A program made the position numbers and the translations under genes. A stretch of 64,000 nt of DNA, from assembly GCF_014836935.1 (NCBI RefSeq), contig NZ_JACSPW010000009.1:62001-126000 (forward strand), read 5' to 3'. The notes below the pieces were generated by a model, which saw nothing but the letters and a program-made list of their open reading frames with translations, had not been told where the DNA came from and searched no databases. Positions within the stretch are counted from its first letter, which is position 1; each line of letters starts with the position of its first letter. Positions 4,088-53,189 of this stretch are shown here, piece after piece. The DNA is from Solibacillus merdavium. Its GTDB lineage: Bacteria > Bacillota > Bacilli > Bacillales_A > Planococcaceae.

Positions 4088-5461
4088 CTATAAATTTTGA
4101 AAAGATTCTCGTAGTGCATCACTAATTGTTTCAACACCGACTACTTGAATATCTGCAGGGAACTCCCATCCTCCGATATTTGAAGCCGGTATGAATGCGC
4201 GTTTAAACCCTAGCTTTGCCGCTTCCTGCACACGCTGCTCAATTCTAGAAACACGACGAACTTCACCCGTTAACCCCACTTCACCAATAAAGCAATCAGT
4301 CGGACGTACCGTTTGATCTTTAAAACTCGAAACAATACTCGTTAATACAGCTAAATCAATTGCTGGCTCATCGAGTTTTACACCACCGGCAACTTTAATA
4401 TAGGCATCCTGTGCCTGAAGCATCATACCCATACGTTTTTCCAAAACTGCCATTAAAAGCTGCACACGGTTTTGATCAACCCCCGTAGCCATCCGCTTTG
4501 GATAATTAAAACTTGTTGGGGTAATAAGAGACTGTATTTCCACCAAAATTGGTCGTGTCCCCTCCATTGAAGCCACTATCGTTGAGCCTGGTGCACCTTG
4601 TGAACGCTCCTGTAAAAACAGCTCTGACGGATTTAATACTTCTTTCAATCCTCCATGGAGCATTTCAAAAATCGCAATTTCATTTGTAGATCCAAAACGG
4701 TTTTTCTGACTACGTAAAATCCGGTGGTTATGATGACGTTCCCCTTCAAAATAAAGTACCGTATCAACCATATGTTCTAAAATACGCGGACCGGCAATTT
4801 GCCCTTCCTTTGTAACGTGGCCAACTAAAAAGATTGCGATATTTTTTGTTTTCGCAATACGCATTAATTCTGCTGTACATTCACGTACTTGAGAAACACT
4901 TCCCGGTGCACTCGTTACTTCTGGATGATGTACTGTTTGAATCGAATCGACAATGACAAATTTAGGTTGGACTTCATCAATTGTTTGATTTAGAAATTCG
5001 AGATTCGTTTCCGAGTAAATATAAAGCTCCGGCGTATGTACACCTAAACGTTCAGCTCTTAGTTTCGTTTGACGGACAGATTCCTCGCCCGAAATATATA
5101 ACACACGTTTCCCTTGATTGGAAAGAAGCGCAGATACTTGTAGTAATAATGTAGATTTCCCGATACCTGGATCACCGCCTATCAGCACAAGTGAACCTGG
5201 GACAATACCGCCTCCAAGAACGCGGTTGAACTCACTCATTTCTGTAGCGATACGCGTTTCTTCCTGTACTTCCACATGAATAATAGGTGTTGCTTTTGTA
5301 GCGGTTGTAGAATGTTGGAACGCACCACGTGGCCCTTTTGTGATGACTTCAACTTCTTCATTCATCGTATTCCATTCACCACAGCCAGGACAGCGCCCCA
5401 TCCATTTTGCCGCTTCATACCCACAGCTGCTGCACATAAATTTAGACTTCTTTTTTGCCAT
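4088..5461 (-). CDS. radA: DNA repair and recombination protein RadA
   Basis: 457 residues, typical length. Starts with a four-cysteine zinc finger (CSSCGY...CPGCGEW, residues 10-31), then a RecA-like ATPase with Walker [11 protein letters not shown] (about residue 100), the RadA-specific KNRFG motif (about residue 254), and a C-terminal Lon-protease-like domain. RadA helps branch migration during recombination. In B. subtilis radA is cotranscribed from the ctsR promoter; here a strong terminator stands between clpC and radA, so read-through or a separate promoter in 5462-5630 is needed. Confidence 0.97.
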
Positions 5462-40297: not shown

Positions 40298-43200
40298 TTG
40301 AATAATTTTAAATTTACGAAGTTCTTTAGTAGTATTCTAGCTATCGTTATGGTGCTGTCTTTATTGATGCCATTCTCGAGTGCAAATGCTGAAGAACTGA
40401 AATCATTCAAGCAGAATAGTCAAAGTGAAAGTATGATTCAACTAAAGGCGGCTATTGCTGAACAGCTAAGCTTGTCTAAGGATGGTCCAACTCTTCACGA
40501 AAGCTTACAAAGTGTATCTGGCAATCAGGATATTGCAGTCATTGTTCATTTATCTGAAAAGCCTGTTGCACTAGAGCAAGGGATGAGCCAAGTTAAAGGC
40601 AAAAAATTCTCCAATGCTAGAGCAAATGAAGTTCGTTCAAATGTAAAAGCTCAGCAAGCAAAAGTAAAAAAAGAGTTAGCTATTAAAAAAGTACAGATGA
40701 CTCAAGGGTATACGTTTGATACAGTTTTAAACGGTTTTGCAGCAACTATTAAAGCAAATGATCTTCCGAAACTGCTTTCAGTAGACGGAATCACACTAAT
40801 TGAGCCTGATGCAACGGTTTATGCATCAGAAGATCAAAATATGAAATCATCGGAGCTTATTAAAGAAGAAACATTAGAAGCTTATATGAATACAAGTAAT
40901 TCCTTCCTTGGCATCGAACAGCTATGGAACGAAGGTATTGAAGGACAAGGAGTTAAAGTAGCAGTACTAGATACGGGTATTGATGCAGATCACCCGGAAT
41001 TTGCCGGAATTTATAAAGGTGGTAAAAACTTTATTCCCCACTCATCAACTTACAATAAGCCTCGTGCAGATGACGATGCATCGGAAACATTACCTTCAGA
41101 GCGCCCAGCTGGGACACCTGAATTTAATGCAAACGGTAGCTCGTTCTATACTTCTCACGGTACACATGTTGCTGGGACAATTGCAGCAATCGGAGCTAAC
41201 GAATTTGGCATCAAAGGAATTGCTCCAAAAATAGACCTTTATGCTTATCGAGTTCTTGGAGCATATGGTAGTGGCGCTACATCAGGTATTGTTAAAGCTA
41301 TCGAAACTGCCGTTTTAGAAGAAATGGATATTATCAATCTTTCACTTGGCGGCGGAGCTAACTCTGAAACGGATGCTGGTTCATTTGCAATTAACAACGC
41401 AATGATAGCGGGAACAATCGGAGTCATTGCAACAGGTAACTCTGGTCCAAATCGTGGAACAATGGGAACACCAGCAACTGCTCGTCTAGGGATTGCTGTT
41501 GGTAACACAACAAATCCAGAAACAATGTATAACGGAGAAGTTAATATTACAGTTGGTGATTACAACTTAACAAAACAGCTTCCATTAATGGGAACAACTT
41601 TTGGTAAAGATTTAGCAACACAGCTTCAAGGTGAATTCGACCTAGTTGCGATTCCTGGAAACGGAGAAGTAAAAGATTTTGAAGGAATTGATGTAGCTGG
41701 TAAAGTAGCATTAATATCTCGTGGCAATATTGCATTCGTTGATAAAATTGCAAATGCAAAGGCCAATGGTGCAATTGCAACAATTATTCATAACTTTGCC
41801 GGTGGATCGAATGCACCGGACATCTCAGGAACTTTCCTTGGTGATTCATTCGAATTCCTACCAACTTTTGATATGTCAGTAACAGATGGTAATGCAATCC
41901 GTGCTGCATTAGCAGGCGGAACTGGAAAAGTAAGTTTTGGTAATTTTGCTTCCACAACAACATCTGGAGATGATGTAAACTCTTCAAGTTCACGCGGGCC
42001 ATCTACACCGAACTTTGACATTAAACCAGATGTAACGGCGCCTGGAACAAATATTATGTCAACAATTCCGATGTACAAAGCAGATTTCCCTGATGCAGAT
42101 TACGCGGAAGCATATGCTCGTAAAACAGGAACTTCTATGGCAACACCACATATTGCAGGTATTGCTGCATTAATAAAGCAAGCAAATCCTAATTGGAGCG
42201 CCTTCGATGTAAAAGTAGCGCTTTCCAATACAGCAAAAGTTTTAGATAAAACAAAATATGATGTGTTTTCTCAAGGTGCGGGACGCGTAAATGCTTATGC
42301 AGCGGCTCATCCAGAAATTCTTGCATATGCACTTGATAACGCTATTTTAGATGGCACAGGTGCTGTTGTAGAAAATCTGAAAGGTACTGTTACTTTCGGT
42401 CCTCAATCACTGAAAGACGGTAATATTTCTGTAACGAAACAAGTTTTAGTAAAAGATATTAAAGGTAATGGCGGTAATTATAATGTTTCCGTTGATGTAA
42501 CGAAAACTTTCGGTGATGCAACGATTACAGTAGATCAGCCAACATTTAATTTAGCTGGTGAGCAGCTTTTAAATATTACATTAACCGCTTCACAAGCTGT
42601 GGCACCAAATGGCTCTGAAATCTTAGGTTTTATCCACATTAACGGTGGCGCTACAGAAGCTTCATTGCCATTCGCGGCTGACTTCGGCAGTGCAGCAACA
42701 ACGGAAATTAAAGATTTTAAAATTACGGAAACAGACTTATCGTTTAACGGTGATGGTGTGAAAGACTCAGCAGTACTTTCATTCACATTAACTGGAGATG
42801 TAACAACGAACTATATTGAGCTTTGGGATATTATGAATCCTGAAGGCGGAGAATATGGAGACGGGTATATTGGTTATCTTCATTCAGGTACTTCACTTGG
42901 AAAAGGTTCATATACACTGAATGTTGGCGGTCAGTATAAACCATGGGGCAGTGCACCTGCAACAACGATTCCAGATGGTCTATATACAATTGATTTCACA
43001 GGTCTTGCAGCTACTGGAGTAGTTTCGGATTACGTTGGACCAATTGTCGTGAAAACAACTAAACCGGAAATTACAGGTACAGCAGCTGAAGGTATCGTTA
43101 CTGGACAAGTAACAGATAAGTATATTGACTATAATGAAGAGTTATATTTATACGGATTAGATTACAACTTAAATGATAAATTAAAAGCTTCATATGTTGC

Positions 43201-44080
43201 GACTGTAAATGGTGAAGTACAAGCTCCGGTTTCTTTCGACTTAAATCAGGACGGTAGCTTCACATTCCCGGTAACAGCAGAAACGAACGCTGTAACAGTG
43301 GTAATTAATGATGCTGCAGGAAATGTTGGCGAAGCGATTATCTTTGAAAATGAAATCGTTGAACCGGTAAAAACACTTTCTGTTAACCCTACTCAACTAA
43401 GCTTAACAGCTGGCGAAACGGCACAGCTTACAGTAACAGAAACATCAACACCTGCTGCAGGTGATGCAACAGAAGAAGATGTAACCTCAAAAGCTACTTA
43501 TGTTGTTGCAGATGAAAATGTAGCAACAGTAGTTAATGGAGTAGTAACTGCAGTAGGAGAAGGTACGACAACAATTACTGCTTCATACGGTGAAAATGAA
43601 GTAACTGTAAATGTTACAGTTACAGCACCAGTTGTGGAGGTACCAGTCGTAACACTGGAAATTGACCAAACTCACGTTGAAACGAGCATCGGTAAAGAAG
43701 TGAACGTTACGATTACTGAAGTAACTACTTTAAACGGTGAAACGACAGAAAAAGATGTTACAAAGCTAGCGAATTACAAAGTTCAAAATGACAAGATTGC
43801 TACTGTAAAAGCCGGTACTGTAAAAGGTAAAGGCCAAGGTACTACATCTGTTACAGTAACTTATGGTGAACATACACTGACGTTCGATGTGACTGTTGTT
43901 AAGCCTGGCAATGGTAACGGCAACGGCAATGGCAATGGCAACGGCAACGGCAATGGCAACGGCAATGGCAACGGCAATGGCAACGGCAATGGCAATGGCA
44001 ATGGCAACGGCAATGGCAACGGCAACGGCAATGGCAATGGTCCTAAGCACAATAATGAATTTACCGAGTCTGAGCTATAA
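40298..44080 (+). CDS. Secreted S8 serine protease with Ig-like repeats and Gly-Asn tail
   Basis: 1260 residues, TTG start at 40298. Signal peptide (1-31, cut near SANA), I9-type propeptide (about 60-170), peptidase S8 domain with Asp225 (VAVLDTGID), His287 (SHGTHVAGT) and Ser613 (GTSMATPHIAG), and a PA insert (about 415-540) of the Vpr type. After the protease come an Fn3-like region (about 690-830), a further beta-rich part, and two BIG2-type Ig domains (about 1025-1115 and 1120-1200). It ends with 22 Gly-Asn dipeptides (1204-1247) and a short PKHNNEFTESEL tail. No LPxTG or transmembrane anchor is seen. Resembles B. subtilis Vpr plus extra C-terminal domains; probably a surface-associated or released protease. 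Confidence 0.92.
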   Translation: MNNFKFTKFFSSILAIVMVLSLLMPFSSANAEELKSFKQNSQSESMIQLKAAIAEQLSLSKDGPTLHESLQSVSGNQDIAVIVHLSEKPVALEQGMSQVKGKKFSNARANEVRSNVKAQQAKVKKELAIKKVQMTQGYTFDTVLNGFAATIKANDLPKLLSVDGITLIEPDATVYASEDQNMKSSELIKEETLEAYMNTSNSFLGIEQLWNEGIEGQGVKVAVLDTGIDADHPEFAGIYKGGKNFIPHSSTYNKPRADDDASETLPSERPAGTPEFNANGSSFYTSHGTHVAGTIAAIGANEFGIKGIAPKIDLYAYRVLGAYGSGATSGIVKAIETAVLEEMDIINLSLGGGANSETDAGSFAINNAMIAGTIGVIATGNSGPNRGTMGTPATARLGIAVGNTTNPETMYNGEVNITVGDYNLTKQLPLMGTTFGKDLATQLQGEFDLVAIPGNGEVKDFEGIDVAGKVALISRGNIAFVDKIANAKANGAIATIIHNFAGGSNAPDISGTFLGDSFEFLPTFDMSVTDGNAIRAALAGGTGKVSFGNFASTTTSGDDVNSSSSRGPSTPNFDIKPDVTAPGTNIMSTIPMYKADFPDADYAEAYARKTGTSMATPHIAGIAALIKQANPNWSAFDVKVALSNTAKVLDKTKYDVFSQGAGRVNAYAAAHPEILAYALDNAILDGTGAVVENLKGTVTFGPQSLKDGNISVTKQVLVKDIKGNGGNYNVSVDVTKTFGDATITVDQPTFNLAGEQLLNITLTASQAVAPNGSEILGFIHINGGATEASLPFAADFGSAATTEIKDFKITETDLSFNGDGVKDSAVLSFTLTGDVTTNYIELWDIMNPEGGEYGDGYIGYLHSGTSLGKGSYTLNVGGQYKPWGSAPATTIPDGLYTIDFTGLAATGVVSDYVGPIVVKTTKPEITGTAAEGIVTGQVTDKYIDYNEELYLYGLDYNLNDKLKASYVATVNGEVQAPVSFDLNQDGSFTFPVTAETNAVTVVINDAAGNVGEAIIFENEIVEPVKTLSVNPTQLSLTAGETAQLTVTETSTPAAGDATEEDVTSKATYVVADENVATVVNGVVTAVGEGTTTITASYGENEVTVNVTVTAPVVEVPVVTLEIDQTHVETSIGKEVNVTITEVTTLNGETTEKDVTKLANYKVQNDKIATVKAGTVKGKGQGTTSVTVTYGEHTLTFDVTVVKPGNGNGNGNGNGNGNGNGNGNGNGNGNGNGNGNGNGNGNGNGNGNGPKHNNEFTESEL
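43907..44038 (+). repeat. Hexanucleotide tandem repeat GGCAAY encoding (Gly-Asn)22
   Basis: 132 bases of in-frame six-base units, mostly GGCAAC and GGCAAT in no fixed order. Such a tract can gain or lose units by slippage without breaking the frame. Confidence 0.95.
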
Positions 44081-45750: not shown

Positions 45751-46494
45751 TTAATTAAACGTTATTTTCACAGTATAGCCTAGGTTGCTAAAGAAACCCT
45801 TGAGAACTTTCTCCGCACTTTTTTCTGCTGATTCTAATAAGCCTATTTCAATAGCCTTATCTTTAATCTCCTTCTGCGCTATTGCTGCAAGGTCAAATCC
45901 TTCATTCCATTTTACTTCTCCACGAAATAGTCCTTCGTCAGAGAAAGTTTTAACTTGATCCATCTGGATTGCTGGATCATGTATAAGCGTTGCCCGTGGC
46001 AGAACGATTTCTAACTCTTTTTTATCATCATTCACCTTTATATCGTCTGAAGTTATACCTTTAAGATCCACTCCTGCAATGACTGTAGCAGGAACAATTA
46101 ATAACAGCTCTCTCTTTGTACCTGGCAAATTGATAGCAATGTTATTTCCGAAGAGCTTATTATCCTCTTCCTCAATAGTTACTGTTACATGAGCTTCAGC
46201 AGTTGCAAGCGTTGCTAATTCCTGGACTTGTTCTATAAACACTGTACTTTCATTTTTAAATGTACTTCCAAAAAACAACCAAGTACTTCCAAACGTGAGG
46301 GCTATGAGTAGCAATGCAATCAAGAACAACTTTAATCCCCAAAATTTAAATAGGATCTTAAATAATGTTCCTGAAATATTGGTGTTTCCTCTATTTTGCC
46401 CTACAACGGCAGTAGCTGCACTTTCTTCATCGCCCTTTTTTAGTTCCTCTAATACTCGCTCAATTTGTATTAATGCTTCATCTTTTTTACTCAT
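45751..46494 (-). CDS. DUF4230 membrane-anchored protein
   Basis: 247 residues. A polar N-terminus of about 50 residues, one membrane helix (about 50-70, FWGLKLFLIALLLIALTFG), then an extracytoplasmic beta-rich domain containing ELATLATAEAHVTVT and LLLIVPATVIAGVDL, the DUF4230 core. Function unknown. Preceded by GGGGGAAA at about 46503. Divergent from the small ORF at 46568. Confidence 0.75.
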   Translation of the reverse strand: MSKKDEALIQIERVLEELKKGDEESAATAVVGQNRGNTNISGTLFKILFKFWGLKLFLIALLLIALTFGSTWLFFGSTFKNESTVFIEQVQELATLATAEAHVTVTIEEEDNKLFGNNIAINLPGTKRELLLIVPATVIAGVDLKGITSDDIKVNDDKKELEIVLPRATLIHDPAIQMDQVKTFSDEGLFRGEVKWNEGFDLAAIAQKEIKDKAIEIGLLESAEKSAEKVLKGFFSNLGYTVKITFN

Positions 46495-47224: not shown

Positions 47225-48895
47225 TTATTGATCTTTCGATGAGCCATCGTTTAAATAAACTTCACCATCTTTATAAGTCATTTGTTCAGGATAACGTAGG
47301 TTTATAACTGCATCCTGAAGTTCTTGTGAAGGTGGACGGGTTGAAAGTGACACAATGATATTAGTAGCGAAAGCAGCTATTGCCCCGAAAATACCAGCAC
47401 CTGTATCGATAATTCCTAATATCGTAAATCCACCATACTTCGCACTAAAAATGTAAACAAGTGTCACAGTTAAACCGACAAGCATACCAGCCATAGTTCC
47501 TTTTGCATTCGCTCGTTTCCACCAGACGCCCAATACAAGTGCAGGGAAGAAAGTACCTGTAGCAAGCGCAAATGCCCATGCGACAATTTGTGTAATGGCA
47601 CCAGGTGGGTTCAATGCAATAATTCCAGCTAGTAATGTTGCAACGACAATTGAAATACGACCTACAAGTAGACGTTTTTGTTCAGAGGCTTGAGGATTGA
47701 TGATCCGATAATAAATATCATGTGCAAACGACGAGGAAATTGAGATCATCAAGCCACCAGCAGTAGATAACGCAGCCGCCATTGCACCTGCAGCCACTAA
47801 TCCAATAACAAATACACCTAGATTTGCGATTTCAGGAGTAGCCATTACGACAATATCATTAGCGATTTTAAGTTCAAGCCACTGAAGAATGCCATCACCA
47901 TTCGTATCGACTATCCCTAATTTTCCTGTATCAATCCATGATTGAGTCCAGGCCGGTAACTCCGCAATCTTTTTACCAGCGATTTCCGTCATTAAAATGA
48001 AACGGGCAAAGGCTGCATAAGCTGGTGCACTAAAATATAAAAGTCCGATAAACACTAGTGCCCATGCACCTGACCAACGCGCTGCCTTCATAGTCCCTAC
48101 CGTATAAAAACGGACAATAACATGGGGAAGTCCGGCTGTACCACACATTAATGTAAACATGAGCGCTAAAAATTGCCACTTGGTTCCATTTGTAAATGGC
48201 GCAAAGTATTCTGAGATTCCGAGCTCTCGGTCAAGTTCGCCCATTTTTGTTACAATTTCACCATAGGAAATCCACGGTAAAGGATTACTCGTTAATTGTA
48301 ATGACATAAAAATAACTGGTACTAAGTAAGCAATAATTAAAATAATGTATTGTGCTACTTGTGTCCAAGTAATACCTTTCATCCCACCAAATGCTGCATA
48401 AAACGCAATTAACACAACGCCAATCATTGTTCCTATTTTTGCATCAATTTCAAAAAGGCGTCCGATTACTACACCAGAACCTGATAGCTGTCCAATGGAA
48501 TACGTGAAGCTTATTATTATTGTACATATAGCCGCTATTATTAGTGCTGCCTTACTATTAAATCGGTCTCCAATAAATTCAGGTACAGTAAAGCGCCCGA
48601 ATTTACGAAGCTGTGGTGCAAGTAATATCGTTAAAAATAAATACCCACCAGTCCATCCCATAATATAAGCTAATCCATCATAGCCAAGTAGCATGATCGT
48701 ACCGGCCATTCCGATAAAGGACGCGGCACTCATCCAGTCTGCTCCGATTGCCATCCCATTAAAAATAGGAGGAACTCCACGGCCAGCAACATAGAAATCA
48801 GATGTTTGCTTTGCAGTATTAAATACTGCTATCCAAATATATAAAGCGAATGTACTTAATATAATCACCAGTGACACTAAAAATTGACTATCCAT
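47225..48895 (-). CDS. Sodium:solute symporter (acetate permease ActP-like)
   Basis: 556 residues, 13 or so membrane spans. The SSS-family signatures are present: FYVAGRGVPPIFNGMAIGADWMSAASFIG (quoted as FYVAGRGVPPIFNGMAIG, about 34-51) and the central GLMISISSSFAHDIYYR (about 385). A subunit encoded upstream (DUF4212) is the usual partner of this subgroup of monocarboxylate symporters. A 50-residue soluble loop around 320-350 interrupts the membrane part. Substrate (acetate or another monocarboxylate) is inferred. Confidence 0.88.
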   Translation of the reverse strand: MDSQFLVSLVIILSTFALYIWIAVFNTAKQTSDFYVAGRGVPPIFNGMAIGADWMSAASFIGMAGTIMLLGYDGLAYIMGWTGGYLFLTILLAPQLRKFGRFTVPEFIGDRFNSKAALIIAAICTIIISFTYSIGQLSGSGVVIGRLFEIDAKIGTMIGVVLIAFYAAFGGMKGITWTQVAQYIILIIAYLVPVIFMSLQLTSNPLPWISYGEIVTKMGELDRELGISEYFAPFTNGTKWQFLALMFTLMCGTAGLPHVIVRFYTVGTMKAARWSGAWALVFIGLLYFSAPAYAAFARFILMTEIAGKKIAELPAWTQSWIDTGKLGIVDTNGDGILQWLELKIANDIVVMATPEIANLGVFVIGLVAAGAMAAALSTAGGLMISISSSFAHDIYYRIINPQASEQKRLLVGRISIVVATLLAGIIALNPPGAITQIVAWAFALATGTFFPALVLGVWWKRANAKGTMAGMLVGLTVTLVYIFSAKYGGFTILGIIDTGAGIFGAIAAFATNIIVSLSTRPPSQELQDAVINLRYPEQMTYKDGEVYLNDGSSKDQ

Positions 48896-48912
48896 TATTC
48901 AGCCCCCTTCCA

Positions 48913-49215
48913 TTAGTGATCTATCATATTTTTTGCGCCTATTTCTTTATTGCGTTCATCATCAATCCCATACTTTTTATCAATTTTGTCACCGACAATC
49001 GCATTTACAAACAGTAAAACAATGAAGGTAAACAATGCTCCAATTGCTCCCATAAAATAGTGGAATGGGAATCCTAAAAATTGAATTTCAGTCAATGAGT
49101 CTGCAAACGCTACCACGACATAAGACACAAGAAACCAAATAGCAAAATAAACTAGCATGTACCTATTTTTCTCACGGAAATAAGCATCAGCAACTTTTTG
49201 ATCAACCTTTTTCAT
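48913..49215 (-). CDS. DUF4212 small subunit of sodium:solute symporter
   Basis: 100 residues from the ATG at 49215 (AAAGGTGG eight bases upstream). Two membrane helices with IQFLGFPFHYFMGAIGALF (about 46-64) between and a C-terminal DKKYGID. Matches the DUF4212 proteins that accompany SSS symporters. It starts 24 bases after the small protein at 49239 and ends 18 bases before the symporter start. Confidence 0.85.
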   Translation of the reverse strand: MKKVDQKVADAYFREKNRYMLVYFAIWFLVSYVVVAFADSLTEIQFLGFPFHYFMGAIGALFTFIVLLFVNAIVGDKIDKKYGIDDERNKEIGAKNMIDH

Positions 49216-49238
49216 TCGGACCACCTTTCTTCATAAAT

Positions 49239-49569: not shown

Positions 49570-49649
49570 AACCACCTGAAACGATGACAAATCAACGTCT
49601 TAGATGGTTCTTTTAAAAACTACACTTATTTATGATACGGTTCACCTTT
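49570..49649 (-). repeat. rlmH 3'-end repeat, distal copy
   Basis: Minus strand contains AAAGGTGAACCGTATCATAA and the following ATAAGTGTAG, coding K-G-E-P-Y-H-K-stop, then a TTTTTAA stretch and a hairpin (GAACCATCTAAGACG ... CGTTTCAGGTGGTTTTC). The 37 bases at 49613-49649 match 52697-52733, the real rlmH end, with 3 mismatches; the hairpin part is similar but more diverged. Confidence 0.9.
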
Positions 49650-49694
49650 CCTAGTTTAAGTGCAATTATTATTTATCCTTAATCCCTCTTATAT

Positions 49695-49758
49695 GCACTA
49701 GAAAAAAGAATTAATGCTACCTGGTAAGCTGCCAAGCCAGCCATTCAAGTAGCGTTCT
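49695..49758 (-). terminator. Terminator-like hairpin without an obvious gene
   Basis: Minus strand ACGCTACTTG / CAGGTAGCAT with an inner GGCTGGCTTGGCAGC hairpin and TTCTTTTTT. There is no minus-strand gene immediately upstream, so it may be a relic. Confidence 0.45.
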
Positions 49759-49901
49759 TTGTTGTGTGCATAATTAGTAACTTACAGTTATTTTTTAAAT
49801 CTAATAACCTTTAAAAATAAAGAATAAAATTAACCGTTCTGAACAAATTAAATTTGACTCTGTCGCTTAGTTTTGACTTATAAAATGGAGGTGAATGATT
49901 G

Positions 49902-50045
49902 ATGGCTAAGAAGAGTAAAACAAGTTTTACAAAAAGAAAAAAGCCGAAAAAAGATATTAATCATCGTGAAGAGTATTCCAAAGAGTTTAACCAAGTGATT
50001 CATAATAATCCTCCACAAGAAGTGACAAAGCACAGAGGCATATAA
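49902..50045 (+). CDS. Small basic protein, unknown
   Basis: 47 residues, ATG at 49902 with GGAGGTG upstream. Lysine-rich N-terminus (MAKKSKTSFTKRKKPKKD) and a hydrophilic, Asn/Gln/His-containing C-terminus. Followed closely by a strong terminator, which supports expression. No family recognised; nucleic acid binding or a small spore protein would fit the composition. Confidence 0.6.
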   Translation: MAKKSKTSFTKRKKPKKDINHREEYSKEFNQVIHNNPPQEVTKHRGI

Positions 50046-50048
50046 GAG

Positions 50049-50092
50049 AAGCTTTAGTCCGATTCGACTTAGAACTTGGACTAAAGCTTTTC
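50049..50092 (+). terminator. Intrinsic terminator after the 47-aa gene
   Basis: AAGCTTTAGTCC / GGACTAAAGCTT with a 17-base loop and TTTCTC. Confidence 0.8.
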
Positions 50093-50100
50093 TCACATCG

Positions 50101-50343
50101 AAAAAAAGGTTTGGGATTCTAATGGACCTGAACTTTCTTAGTTCTCTAGAGGAAACAGGCTGTTTGCATTTTAATGGTCCTACAACAATTTGCTATTTAG
50201 GTCACGACTAAGGCAACACCGATATTTTTTTTCAAATAATAAAATGCTTGTCATTTCCTCTCTTATTTCAATAATTTAAATTAACAGAGCTGTTAATTTA
50301 AATAAAAAAACCTACGTTTAAGTAACGTAAGTTTGATTAACTA
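50101..50343. other. Non-coding region with a perfect 14-bp inverted repeat and terminator
   Basis: 50274-50303 is ATTTAAATTAACAG, AG, and its exact complement. Beside it, on the minus strand, 50334-50304 is the terminator of the ABC permease gene (AAACTTACG / CGTAGGTTT, seven T). No ORF seen. Confidence 0.6.
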
Positions 50344-51075
50344 TTAATTTTGCTGAATTTTATATTTGAAAATAAAAATCGAAAGACTAAAAAGGACAGC
50401 TCCATAAACTACCACAACATATAAATGGGGAAACATTGCGCTAAAGTCTTCTGCTACAATTGATCGAACTAAATCAACAGCGTGGACGAATGGTAGAGCA
50501 TAAGCGACTTTTTCAAAGGCCCCCCCAATTAACGATACATCGAACCATGCGCCAGATAATAGTGCTGTCAAGTTCGTTAACAAAGCTCCACATAAGCCTA
50601 CTGCTGCCTTTTCGCTAAATAAGGTGCCGCATAATAGTCCGATTGCTATGAAAATAGTAGATGTAATTAGTAAGGCTATAAATGCAAATACATGGTTGAA
50701 AGATAGTTCCAAACCTAAAAAGTAAGCTGTTATAAAACAAGTAATACTTTGAAGCACAACAATTATCCCTAAAGGAAGCGTATAACCAATAATAAAATCA
50801 CTTGCTCTCATAGGAGTAGTTAGCAATCTTATTAAATAGGAAGTAGAACGGTCTTTCGCTAACGTTTGTGCTGCAAATAAAGCAATAAAAGAAAGGCTAA
50901 ATACTGCGATGCCAGGTGTTAAATGTTCAATATTAAAAAGTGCTTCTGGAACATTGCGATTAATCGCAGTTAAAAGCAACAGTAAAATGATTGGAAAGGC
51001 TATACCAAAAAATAATGAAATCGGGTCGCGTACAATTTCTTTCGTACAACGTCCAGCAAAGACAAGAGCCCTCAT
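50344..51075 (-). CDS. ABC-2 type transporter permease
   Basis: 243 residues, six hydrophobic segments, N-terminus MRALVFAGRCTKEIVRDPISLFFGIAFP (quoted as MRALVFAGRCTKEIVRDP). Middle helix-linker region TTPMRASDFIIGYTLP (about 85-100) is typical of DrrB/YhhJ-type exporters. Overlaps the ATPase stop by one base, an operon with it. A multidrug, bacteriocin or lantibiotic export or immunity function is possible; the sequence does not decide. Confidence 0.8.
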   Translation of the reverse strand: MRALVFAGRCTKEIVRDPISLFFGIAFPIILLLLLTAINRNVPEALFNIEHLTPGIAVFSLSFIALFAAQTLAKDRSTSYLIRLLTTPMRASDFIIGYTLPLGIIVVLQSITCFITAYFLGLELSFNHVFAFIALLITSTIFIAIGLLCGTLFSEKAAVGLCGALLTNLTALLSGAWFDVSLIGGAFEKVAYALPFVHAVDLVRSIVAEDFSAMFPHLYVVVVYGAVLFSLSIFIFKYKIQQN

Positions 51076-51806
51076 TATAATTCGCCTCCTGTTACGAAAT
51101 GCACAAATGCATCCTCAAAGTTTTCTTTACTTGCTGTTATAATGAGCTCGTCTACTGTACCAAGTGCCTTTATTTCGCCATCCTTCATAATACAAATGCG
51201 ATCGCACAAGCTTTCTGCTTCTTCTAAATAGTGCGTAGTGAGTACAATTGTAGTCGTCTCTCTCAGTTTATTAATCATTGCCCAAAGTTCACGGCGGCTA
51301 ATGATATCTAACCCTAAAGTTGGTTCATCTAAAAATAAAATTCGAGGATCTGCAATTAGAGCCATTGCAATGCTTAACTTTCGTTGCCAACCACCGGATA
51401 AATTCTTACCACGTTGATGTTCGTAAGGCTGTAGTGAAAACTGGCTAATTAAAGCCTCCGTTTTTTCAATGGACTTCTCCTTTGAAAAACCGTGAATGCG
51501 TGCCATTAATAGTAAATTTTCACGTACAGATAAATTTGGTGCAATGGACGTTTCCTGAGGGGAAACAGCGAGTAATTTTCGAATACTTGGTAACTCTTTA
51601 CTAAGCGAATGCCCAAGGACAAGCGCATCTCCTGTAGACGGTTTTGCTAGGCCACTTAGCATATTTAGAAGTGTCGTTTTACCAGCGCCATTTACACCAA
51701 GGAGTCCGAATAGTTCACCTTGGTTAATCGTAAGTGTCATAGGAGAAACGGCAACTTTTTCTTTAAAGCGTTTTGATAAACCTTGAAGTTCAATTGCAGC
51801 ATTCAT
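51075..51806 (-). CDS. ABC-2 type transporter ATP-binding protein
   Basis: 243 residues. Walker A GVNGAGKTT (about 38), Q-loop VSPQETSIAP (about 80), signature NLSGGWQRKLSIAMAL (about 137), Walker B ILFLDEPTLGLD (about 160), H-loop TTHYLEEAE (about 195). The signature has W where most have E or M. GGAGGAAT precedes the ATG. Operon with permease and with the regulator upstream (five-base gap). Confidence 0.9.
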   Translation of the reverse strand: MNAAIELQGLSKRFKEKVAVSPMTLTINQGELFGLLGVNGAGKTTLLNMLSGLAKPSTGDALVLGHSLSKELPSIRKLLAVSPQETSIAPNLSVRENLLLMARIHGFSKEKSIEKTEALISQFSLQPYEHQRGKNLSGGWQRKLSIAMALIADPRILFLDEPTLGLDIISRRELWAMINKLRETTTIVLTTHYLEEAESLCDRICIMKDGEIKALGTVDELIITASKENFEDAFVHFVTGGEL

Positions 51807-51810
51807 TAAT

Positions 51811-52239
51811 TTATTCCTCCTCTTTTTGCTGAGCTTTCACCATATCTAAAAACTGTTGAATCATTTTTTCAGGTGCTAACGCCAACCCACGATCCTCATC
51901 TCCTATAATAACGACTGAATCACCTGGGTTAATTTGAAAAATTTCACGGGCTTTTTTCGGAATTACAATTTGGCCGCGTTCCCCTACTGTTGCTGTCCCA
52001 AAAAAATGCTGGCCTTTCGGTGGAATATCTACACCCGTTTCTTCTGAGTTATGGTTTACTAATGCATCTAAGGTTACTCCGAAGAAATTGGCAATATTCA
52101 TACTATGGTGTAAATCTGGTGTCGATTCGCCTTTTTCCCATTTTGCAATTACTTGACGTGAAACATTTATTTCTTGGGCTAATTGCTCTTGAGTTAGATT
52201 ACGACGTTTTCTCAACGAGCATAAATTCAAATTAATCAT
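51811..52239 (-). CDS. HTH-XRE / AbrB-type fusion transcriptional regulator
   Basis: 142 residues from the ATG at 52239 (GAGAGG nine bases upstream). Residues 5-60 are a Cro/CI helix-turn-helix (LTQEQLAQEINVSRQVIAKWE), residues 80-125 a SpoVT/AbrB swapped-hairpin domain (VGERGQIVIPKKAREIFQINPGD, quoted as GQIVIPKKAREIFQINPGD). Both domains bind DNA in other proteins; the combination is known for small Bacillales regulators of adjacent ABC exporters. It lies five bases before the ABC ATPase gene, so it probably controls that operon. Confidence 0.85.
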   Translation of the reverse strand: MINLNLCSLRKRRNLTQEQLAQEINVSRQVIAKWEKGESTPDLHHSMNIANFFGVTLDALVNHNSEETGVDIPPKGQHFFGTATVGERGQIVIPKKAREIFQINPGDSVVIIGDEDRGLALAPEKMIQQFLDMVKAQQKEEE

Positions 52240-52424
52240 ACTTTTCATCCTCTCATAATTAATTATAAACACTACTTTAATAGTAAATCTACCAACGGAG
52301 CATAACATTAATGTTATCATTCGTAGCGTAATGTGATATGAAAGTAGATGTGATGGATAAATAACATATTCTAACAAATCGCAAAATTTTTAGACATTAG
52401 CTCTGTTAAAACTGAATGTTGAAA

Positions 52425-52456
52425 TAAAAAGCGCTAGCCTCCGTTACGGCTAGCTA
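52425..52456 (-). terminator. Terminator-like hairpin in the element right part
   Basis: Minus strand GCTAGCC / GGCTAGC and GCTTTTTATTTC. No gene lies directly upstream on that strand; it may stop read-through from rlmH. Confidence 0.5.
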
Positions 52457-52484
52457 CAACTATTTAATAAGATGAGTAATACTA

Positions 52485-52560
52485 CTACACCTGAAATACT
52501 GAATAAACATCATCTCAGATGGCCATTTTATAGATCCATACTTACTTAAAGCACAACCTT
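52485..52560 (-). repeat. Degenerate third copy of the rlmH-tail/terminator repeat
   Basis: Aligns by eye to 49570-49649 with the shared blocks CACCTGAAA, AGATGG, TTTTA and AACCTT/ACCTTT and about 65-75% identity overall. The central GAACCGTAY part is lost. Confidence 0.45.
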
Positions 52561-52642
52561 TGTTTCGTTAATCGCCAATGTATTACCTTTGAAATTTTTA
52601 CTTTGCGAAGGTGGATTTTTCTAATTTTTAGAGGTGGAAATT

Positions 52643-52691
52643 TTTGATGAAAAAAAGCCATCAAAACATTCATTTTTCAATGCTTTGATGA
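52643..52691 (-). terminator. Intrinsic terminator after rlmH
   Basis: Minus strand CATCAAAGCATT / AATGTTTTGATG (one wobble) and GGCTTTTTTTC. Confidence 0.8.
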
Positions 52692-52696
52692 CTTTC

Positions 52697-52733
52697 TTAA
52701 AAACTGCACTTATTTATGGTACGGTTCACCCTT
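52697..52733 (-). repeat. rlmH 3'-end repeat, native copy
   Basis: The last seven codons and stop of rlmH plus the first 13 bases downstream; 34 of 37 bases identical to 49613-49649, same orientation. Confidence 0.92.
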
Positions 52734-53189
52734 AATAATTCTGAAACTTCGATAAATCTGTTCTACTAATACTAGCTTCATCAATTGATGAGGTAACGTC
52801 ATCTTTCCAAAGCACAACTTTTCATCCGCCCGTTTCAGTACATCGGAGTGAAGTCCTAACGATCCTCCAATGACAAAAGCCACTTTACTTTTTCCATATG
52901 TCATGAGGGATTCTAAATCCGCGGCCATTTCTTCACTAGTTTTCATTTTGCCATCTAAAGCGAGCGCAATAACATATGTCCCCTCATTAATTTTCGCAAG
53001 GATGCGCTCACCTTCTTTACGTTTGACGATTTCCATATCAGCTTCGCTCAACTGTTCTGGTGCCTTTTCATCTGGTACCTCTACTAAGTCCACCTTTGCA
53101 TATCCGCCTAAGCGCTTTACATATTCTTCGATACCCATCTTCAAATACTTTTCTTTTAATTTACCAACTGAAATGATTGTTATATTCAC
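52710..53189 (-). CDS. rlmH: 23S rRNA (pseudouridine1915-N3)-methyltransferase
   Basis: 159 residues, SPOUT-class methyltransferase. Begins [19 protein letters not shown], has the [16 protein letters not shown]-binding knot (about 103-115) and ends [15 protein letters not shown]. It modifies Psi1915 in 23S rRNA helix 69. This gene (orfX, yydA) is the integration target of SCC elements in staphylococci; the final GEPYHK-stop here has the same layout and is duplicated 3.08 kb downstream. Confidence 0.97.

Follow-up and report, generated by a model that had tools for sequence, protein, structure and literature searches.

Why does the end of rlmH occur twice within a few kilobases of the Solibacillus merdavium chromosome, and what is the DNA that lies between the two copies? 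The window considered here is a stretch of 64,000 nucleotides of this genome (contig NZ_JACSPW010000009.1, positions 62,001 to 126,000). Its first-pass annotation proposed an island like the staphylococcal cassette chromosome (SCC), bounded by direct repeats of the rlmH 3' end and enclosing an ATP-binding cassette (ABC) exporter and its regulator. We conclude, with a probability of roughly 85%, that the 3.08-kb interval between the repeats is an SCC-type cassette without a recombinase of its own, inserted at the rlmH 3' end. The evidence comes from the repeats, an empty site in a relative, the same cargo beside an attachment (att) site elsewhere, recombinases in relatives, and a dyad centred on a GA dinucleotide.

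The repeated rlmH end and its empty site

The 37-base segment at 52697-52733 (ttaaaaactgcacttatttatggtacggttcaccctt) recurs at 49613-49649 (ttaaaaactacacttatttatgatacggttcaccttt) in the same orientation, with 3 mismatches in 37 positions and a spacing of 3084 bases, exactly as first annotated. On the rlmH strand, the gene end GGT GAA CCG TAC CAT AAA TAA GTGCAGTTTTTAA runs from 52733 to 52697, and its near-copy, with three changes, from 49649 to 49613. The core pattern GAACCGTAYCATAAATAA has only two matches in the 3.78-Mb genome, both at this locus, and the reversed pattern used as a control has none. Inverted arms can be recognized by eye at the cassette ends: on the rlmH strand, TAAGTGCAGTT adjoins rlmH and AATTGCACTTA stands ahead of the second copy, the two being complementary at 10 of 11 positions. 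The functional repeat extends beyond the 37 bases and includes these arms. A more stringent junction pattern, CACTTA-N10-GGNGAACCNTAYCAYAARTAAGTG, fits only the second att copy in this genome. The interval therefore has the hallmarks by which SCC elements are recognized (insertion at the rlmH 3' end, flanking direct repeats that contain the integration-site sequence, and inverted repeats) except that no ccr gene complex lies within it. Its site, repeats and arms class the interval as SCC-type, and because it lacks ccr it would be called a pseudo-SCC.

We compared the window genome with 15 other Solibacillus genomes (n=16). The core lies at the rlmH end in 16 of 16, and 12 carry at least one further copy. 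The first-pass annotation had looked to relatives without the ABC genes for an empty site with a single repeat, and the congener G008 supplies it: one att copy at rlmH, then the terminator and symporter genes that in the window follow the second copy. The flank blocks are 82.5% and 87.1% identical between the two genomes. When the window flanks are joined, they align end to end with G008 in a single alignment of 1012 columns at 82.6% identity; it has 12 gap positions, and the left 532 bases, aligned separately, have none. A second precise join comes from S. palustris MA9 (G001, NZ_JAKZFC010000008.1), where two att copies lie 356 bases apart and the joined flanks give a gap-free alignment of 1996 bases to G002 at 97.0% identity. 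Joined flanks gave no full-length match in three further comparisons (G004 with G005, G011 with G007, locus L144 with locus L140), where other DNA occupies the compared sites.

That the ABC genes might belong to a core gene order of the genus was considered and rejected. Within 20 kb downstream of rlmH, none of the 15 other genomes has a match to the regulator or the permease, and matches to the ATPase reach only 25-34% identity. Synteny in all relatives, which the first-pass annotation had named as evidence against an attachment site, is thus not observed. The window genome itself has a second operon elsewhere that is 69% identical to the ABC genes.

The ABC unit is found beside an att site at other loci. 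G010 has all three genes (regulator, ATPase, permease) at a distance of 0.8 Mb from rlmH; they are 93.5% identical to the window genes over 2009 bases, and the homology ends seven bases before an att site. Over rlmH and the adjoining 1.5 kb or so of upstream DNA, the same two genomes are 82.1% identical. In G078, which belongs to another genus, an att site is followed by the terminator of the window cassette (91% identity over 79 bases including att). Next comes the permease gene end (84% identity, 294 bases), so that a truncated version of the window ABC unit is present there. Since the rlmH-side end and terminator are joined to ABC sequence in this genus as well, the ABC unit starts at an att site in its own right.

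Is the whole interval one cassette? This was considered and rejected, because the sister species S. faecavium A46 (G003, NZ_JACSPZ010000008.1) also has the distal part, whose rlmH-side end lies there in a degenerate att. In that genome the ABC genes are missing and a different gene, GGDEF-like by eye, adjoins rlmH. The distal 0.45 kb, with an open reading frame (ORF) of 47 amino acids, is common to both species, and the segment reaching into the symporter gene aligns at 90.7%. Homology to the window starts inside the degenerate att (score 3.1), at window position 50095, and the far-end att of S. faecavium aligns, in damaged form, with the second att of the window. The alignments suggest that the window island has two parts, an ABC cassette and next to it an older segment that S. 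faecavium also has, with the newest DNA probably adjoining rlmH. The SCC-type insertion that was first proposed is thus retained, and the single island is replaced by two segments.

The repeats enclose a regulator with a helix-turn-helix (HTH) and an AbrB/MazE-like domain, an ABC ATPase, an ABC-2 permease and the 47-residue ORF (Table 1). No ORF of the interval matched a helicase or primase family. The native rlmH hairpin now lies 3 kb from its gene, and the cassette's own hairpin follows rlmH. The first-pass annotation called an ABC exporter with its regulator typical SCC cargo; nothing in our analysis shows an ABC exporter to be such.

Table 1. Features of the rlmH locus, in window coordinates
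Feature	Position	Strand	Evidence or remark
rlmH (23S rRNA pseudouridine methyltransferase), insertion target	52710..53189	-	NCBIfam NF000985, 255.7 bits against a cut-off of 172
attL, att site of the rlmH 3' end	52697..52733	-	Position-weight score 66.3; inferred crossover dinucleotide GA 52726-52727; cassette arm TAAGTGCAGTTTT 52700-52712
Terminator-like hairpin (by eye), cassette-borne, just past att	52650..52695	-	Similar sequence after att in G078 (other genus)
Regulator, HTH_3 and AbrB/MazE-like domain, start codon uncertain	51811..52248	-	Domain matches
ABC transporter ATPase	51075..51806	-	Best NCBIfam match DrrA, 237.9 bits, under the cut-off of 312.45
ABC-2 type permease	50344..51075	-	G010 homology stops at the gene end, seven bases before att
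Filler of about 250 bases between ABC cassette and older segment	50096..50343	.	No recognizable att remaining
Older distal segment, common to sister species G003 (S. faecavium)	49650..50095	.	47-residue ORF 49902-50045 (+)
attR, second att copy	49613..49649	-	GA 49642-49643; inverted arm TTGCACTTA 49657-49665
Displaced native rlmH terminator	49570..49609	-	Homologous hairpin directly 3' of rlmH at the G008 empty site
Chromosomal flank, sodium/solute symporter	47225..49224	-	Small subunit 48913-49224, large subunit 47225-48895

The 47-residue ORF is lysine-rich and has no Pfam match. A relative (58-100% identity) is present in 16 of 16 Solibacillus genomes, as one match per genome except in G013, which has a second, broken one; only the window genome and G003 have it at rlmH. 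When its original locus in the window genome was sought through the neighbourhood in G009, only one flank matched well (78%). Downstream of the ORF, a near-perfect inverted repeat at 50044-50096 is likely a bidirectional terminator. Farther out, the gene at 45751-46494 follows the symporter in G003, G004, G005 and G006 as it does in the window genome, and its 78% homologue in G007 (L033:15758-16501) lies within an att-bounded interval at rlmH. A large secreted subtilisin-like protease ORF (by eye) at 40298-44080 ends in a long glycine-asparagine repeat.

Small cassettes across the family

How common is this arrangement? In a census of 261 genomes of the family, an att pattern slightly wider than the window core matched in 229, with at least two copies in 128 and at least three in 62; the reversed control matched in 0 of 261. 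A query widened to the order gave these same 261 genomes, so the counts apply to the family alone. The stringent junction pattern with common arms occurs in 27 of these genomes (control, 0). Among 80 named rlmH loci, 38 have one to four extra copies within 10 kb, and all 63 extra copies downstream of rlmH lie on the rlmH strand. A weight-matrix scan of 107 segments, from which L114 and L117 (genomes G003 and G001) of the named loci were left out, gave 238 sites on the rlmH strand, 15 positions on the opposite strand and 131 intervals, whose median length is 2.1 kb; the matrix was trained on the same sequences as it scanned, and the threshold was set 2 above the shuffled-control peak of 3.8. 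Arrays may be longer than they appear, because many loci are truncated, either at 10 or 20 kb or by the end of the contig. Copies and arrays of att also occur away from rlmH in G001, G002, G008 and G013. One such entry site is common to G001, G002 and G013, with an upstream flank that is about 80% identical and, in G002, a DUF6815 gene.

In the loci read, units are mostly small. Three intervals under 150 bases were left out, and 120 of the remaining 128 att-to-att intervals have no recombinase, at sizes down to a few hundred bases; distant recombinases could be missed, since the profile was built from five sequences. ORFs of at least 70 amino acids number none in 9 intervals, one in 39, two in 28 and three or more in 52, so that 76 of 128 have at most two. 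Nineteen cassette proteins were scanned, and 6 had no Pfam match; the matches of the others include a kinase, a chemoreceptor, MerR, alcohol and IMP dehydrogenases, a major facilitator superfamily protein, a xanthine/uracil permease, a UvrD-like helicase and a methyltransferase.

Several units are nearly identical in different genera. A 464-base unit at a non-rlmH site of S. palustris is 98% identical to one at rlmH of Lysinibacillus xylanilyticus DSM 23493, and both ends are shared. A 2167-base unit is shared to both ends at 97% identity by S. palustris, G002 and L. xylanilyticus SR-86, where it encodes a GAF-histidine kinase. Both ends are likewise shared by a MerR unit of two genes, 80-93% identical, in S. 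palustris, G002, G008 and Psychrobacillus antarcticus. As background for these comparisons, S. palustris and these three loci of other genera are 71-72% identical across the aligned parts of the 10 kb preceding the rlmH end. In the 94 pairs of homologous intervals from different genomes (at least 250 bases aligned), the left end is shared in 26 and the right end in 43; pairs without shared ends are partial or mosaic.

One cassette of 428-464 bases has no ORF above 65 amino acids and is 84-98% conserved between Solibacillus and Lysinibacillus (G001c 4442-4927, L198; L144, 43-528 past the rlmH end; G007 1082-1531, L033). It may encode an RNA, or may consist of ends and a terminator only.

These data bear on whether the window interval is instead the residue of a larger island, in which a full SCC-type element with its recombinase was inserted and the recombinase part was later deleted, leaving the ABC genes. 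Congeners do hold recombinase islands of about 8 to 21 kb at the same site, and the window interval contains about 250 bases of filler without recognizable origin and no att between its two segments. However, the att-side end and terminator are joined to ABC sequence in another genus too, in the G078 remnant, and intervals without a recombinase, at sizes down to a few hundred bases, prevail in the loci read. The first-pass annotation left the choice between a recombinase-less SCC relative and a residue; the former fits better, and we consider the latter unlikely.

Recombinases, recombination site and a possible mechanism

Which enzyme might move such cassettes? As first annotated for the enclosed DNA, there is no ccr gene, and in the whole genome the large serine recombinase (LSR) family PF07508 has 0 matches (E≤0.001). 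CcrB-like LSRs are encoded within att-bounded rlmH islands of four congeners (G009, G010, G013 and G014). Against the NCBIfam CcrB model, four of the att-linked LSRs reach 375-405 bits, and one that is the second member of a pair reaches 222. Generic LSR similarity was considered as the cause of the match; six further LSRs, hand-picked from the PF07508 matches of the genus, score much lower (73-188). All five recombinases scanned at att sites are serine recombinases. An element with two recombinases is 100% identical over 6132 bases between G010, where it lies at rlmH, and G013, where it lies at another site.

The recombination site itself is consistent with this class of enzyme. Internal junctions have the sequence AAAAACCgCAcTTA-n6-TTACGGtGAACCGTATCATAAGTAAGTGcGGTTTTT, and in those scoring at least 40 the dyad symmetry peaks at GA (0.574; next centre, 0.331). 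No dyad peak is seen at rlmH junctions, whose left half is gene sequence. GA is present in 180 of 186 junctions, and the sites have the dyad arms around a shared central dinucleotide that characterize LSR sites. This dyad layout is the one expected of serine-integrase sites. Left ends commonly bear terminator-like hairpins (87 of 198, against 54 of 198 on the opposite strand and 0 of 198 after shuffling); right ends have 4 of 96 on either strand, and random positions 23 of 600.

Recombinase-bearing elements have their own inverted arms around the same GA centre and fall into four arm groups: G010/G014 with L148 and L127, G009/L129, L128 with L143, and G013/L137. Only the left end was available for L148, L127 and L143. 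Recombinase identity within groups is 67-70% for G010/G014/L148, 89% for L128/L143 and 67% for G013/L137; the L129 gene is in pieces and was left out, and in L127 the pair is represented by its second enzyme only. The correspondence of arms and recombinases across four groups is a pattern rather than a statistic. The commonest cassette arm, TAAGTGCGGTTTT, is the arm of G013/L137, and the window arm agrees with it at 12 of 13 positions by eye. We therefore take an enzyme of the G013/L137 type as the likely mover of the window cassette.

Recombinase genes that adjoin rlmH run antisense across att into rlmH, where their stop codon lies (L024:17782-19512 in G009, L020:17753-19492 in G010, L021:17788-19497 in G014, and also in L148, L143 and L128). 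Their last residues are therefore derived from the target and would differ when the element is excised or relocated, as between the G010 element and its near-identical counterpart in G013. LSR genes are also clustered in places, with twelve domain matches within 28 kb in G004 (C13:708679-736677), three in G009 (203-207 kb), two in G008 (198-201 kb) and four in G013 (1.906-1.909 Mb).

From these observations we infer the enzyme class, its supply in trans, a circular intermediate and the order of insertion. A CcrB-like LSR from another element, of which none is found in the genome now, would act in trans, cut the att sites at the central GA and join a cassette circle to rlmH. With the cut at GA, the incoming cassette would supply the last rlmH codons, the stop and the downstream sequence, and its own last codons and terminator would replace those of rlmH. 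At the far end, insertion would leave behind the second att copy together with the native terminator, now displaced. The older small segment beside the far att would have been inserted first, and the newer ABC-exporter cassette beside rlmH.

Several findings count against the recombinase-less cassette or its layering. The absence of an LSR from the window genome leaves present mobility unproven, and all five att-linked LSRs scanned score far under the curated CcrB cut-off of 900. Where the ABC cassette gives way to the distal segment, nothing resembling att remains (best score, -27.4). The distal segment may be captured host DNA, because the 47-residue gene is matched in all 16 genomes of the genus. 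The far-end att of S. faecavium scores -29.9, like background, and was recognized solely through its alignment to the window's second att. To the left of the ABC copy in G010 no att is seen, and the arm on its right departs from the usual form in lacking CACTTA. Finally, both ends are shared in only 13 of the 94 homologous interval pairs.

Could another recombinase family, or homologous recombination after natural transformation, have moved the cassettes, with the CcrB-like enzymes as bystanders that share a hotspot? G001, G002 and G007 would fit this explanation, being rich in att copies without any PF07508 match. It is nevertheless quite unlikely, given inverted arms around GA in the recombinase elements, the identity of the commonest cassette arm with that of G013/L137, and a dyad laid out as for serine integrases. 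The explanation that the repeat is no recombination site at all, but a duplicated part of the rlmH end, or else a dispersed intergenic repeat resembling a terminator or a miniature inverted-repeat transposable element, with ordinary local variation between the copies, is already disfavoured and extremely improbable: the repeats are short and many left ends have terminator-like hairpins, but the joins are precise (S. palustris without its 356-base cassette aligns gap-free), near-identical full-length cassettes occupy different sites in different genera, and the extra copies at the named loci share one orientation. We therefore retain an SCC-type cassette without its own recombinase as the account of the window interval.

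Comparison with known systems

The kind of element described here is already known, since SCC-like rlmH islands, spore-formers included, are in print. SCC elements are best known through methicillin resistance. Staphylococcal SCC and pseudo-SCC elements resemble the window interval in using the same rlmH 3' target codons, in their direct repeats at both ends and in their inverted arms, and a central GA dinucleotide is reported for CcrAB (PMC10581047). Tandem SCC regions partitioned by direct repeats, and ccr-less units bounded by them, are on record (PMC4723332). As the term pseudo-SCC is used in that source, the interval is a repeat-bounded rlmH unit without ccr, but its host is not staphylococcal. 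Unlike the staphylococcal elements, it resides in Solibacillus, carries a 3-kb ABC cargo and has no ccr found anywhere in its genome, and in the loci read many units are only one or two genes long.

Islands downstream of rlmH that combine LSRs with PolA-SSB primases have been described across Bacillota, spore-formers included; their second end was located by its match to the rlmH end, some are tandem composites, and empty sites were confirmed for three (PMC10061031). Those islands were found with recombinases and helicases as bait and carry primase genes, whereas the window unit is recombinase-less and 3 kb long. SCC-like rlmH islands are also reported from several genera, including Bacillus cereus and Geobacillus vulcani (PMC10581047). 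The Enterococcus cassette chromosome (ECC) uses the rlmH 3' site, with attL and attR of about 50 bp and a central TATCATAA motif; it has CcrAB-type recombinases, and its horizontal transfer was demonstrated at the bench in Enterococcus (PMC6222049). The ECC elements described differ from the window unit in bearing ccrAB, in host and in cargo. The SbCI ccrDE island of Staphylococcus brunensis (PMC10581047) is a ccr island outside rlmH and in this resembles the non-rlmH att sites of Solibacillus, but it lies in rimL with other repeats, whereas the Solibacillus sites retain the rlmH-type core.

As a single island, then, the window interval is a further case of a known kind, and what we add is the family-wide population of small recombinase-less cassettes. 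Among the titles listed from a literature collection that lacks most subscription journals, none concerns rlmH cassettes of one or two genes in Planococcaceae. Extra rlmH att copies in 128 of 261 genomes, together with near-identical one- and two-gene cassettes across genera, would suggest that the SCC mechanism serves general gene exchange. The natural variants of att and arms, along with the recombinase groups, make arm recognition and the mobilization in trans of recombinase-less cassettes testable.

Do the Planococcaceae run an integron-like gene-cassette system on serine recombination? Integron gene cassettes are short recombinase-less tandem units with one recombination site each, shared among genomes and having one preferred entry site. 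In the Planococcaceae, rlmH would be the main entry and a few other sites secondary, and cassettes of hundreds of bases to a few kilobases, mostly recombinase-less, often of one gene, frequently led by a terminator and with one palindromic att each, would be excised, stacked in tandem and exchanged between genera by CcrB-like enzymes acting in trans, each clade reading its own arms. We offer this tentatively, at somewhat less than even odds, and the likeness is one of analogy only. Integrons use the tyrosine integrase IntI and attC sites that fold as single strands, whereas the candidates here are serine recombinases and the sites double-stranded dyads; the cargo, unlike that of integrons, includes regulators and metabolic genes, and no common promoter is shown. 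If this reading is true, the ABC unit of the window is one such cassette, and SCC elements are the large, recombinase-bearing members of a wider population.

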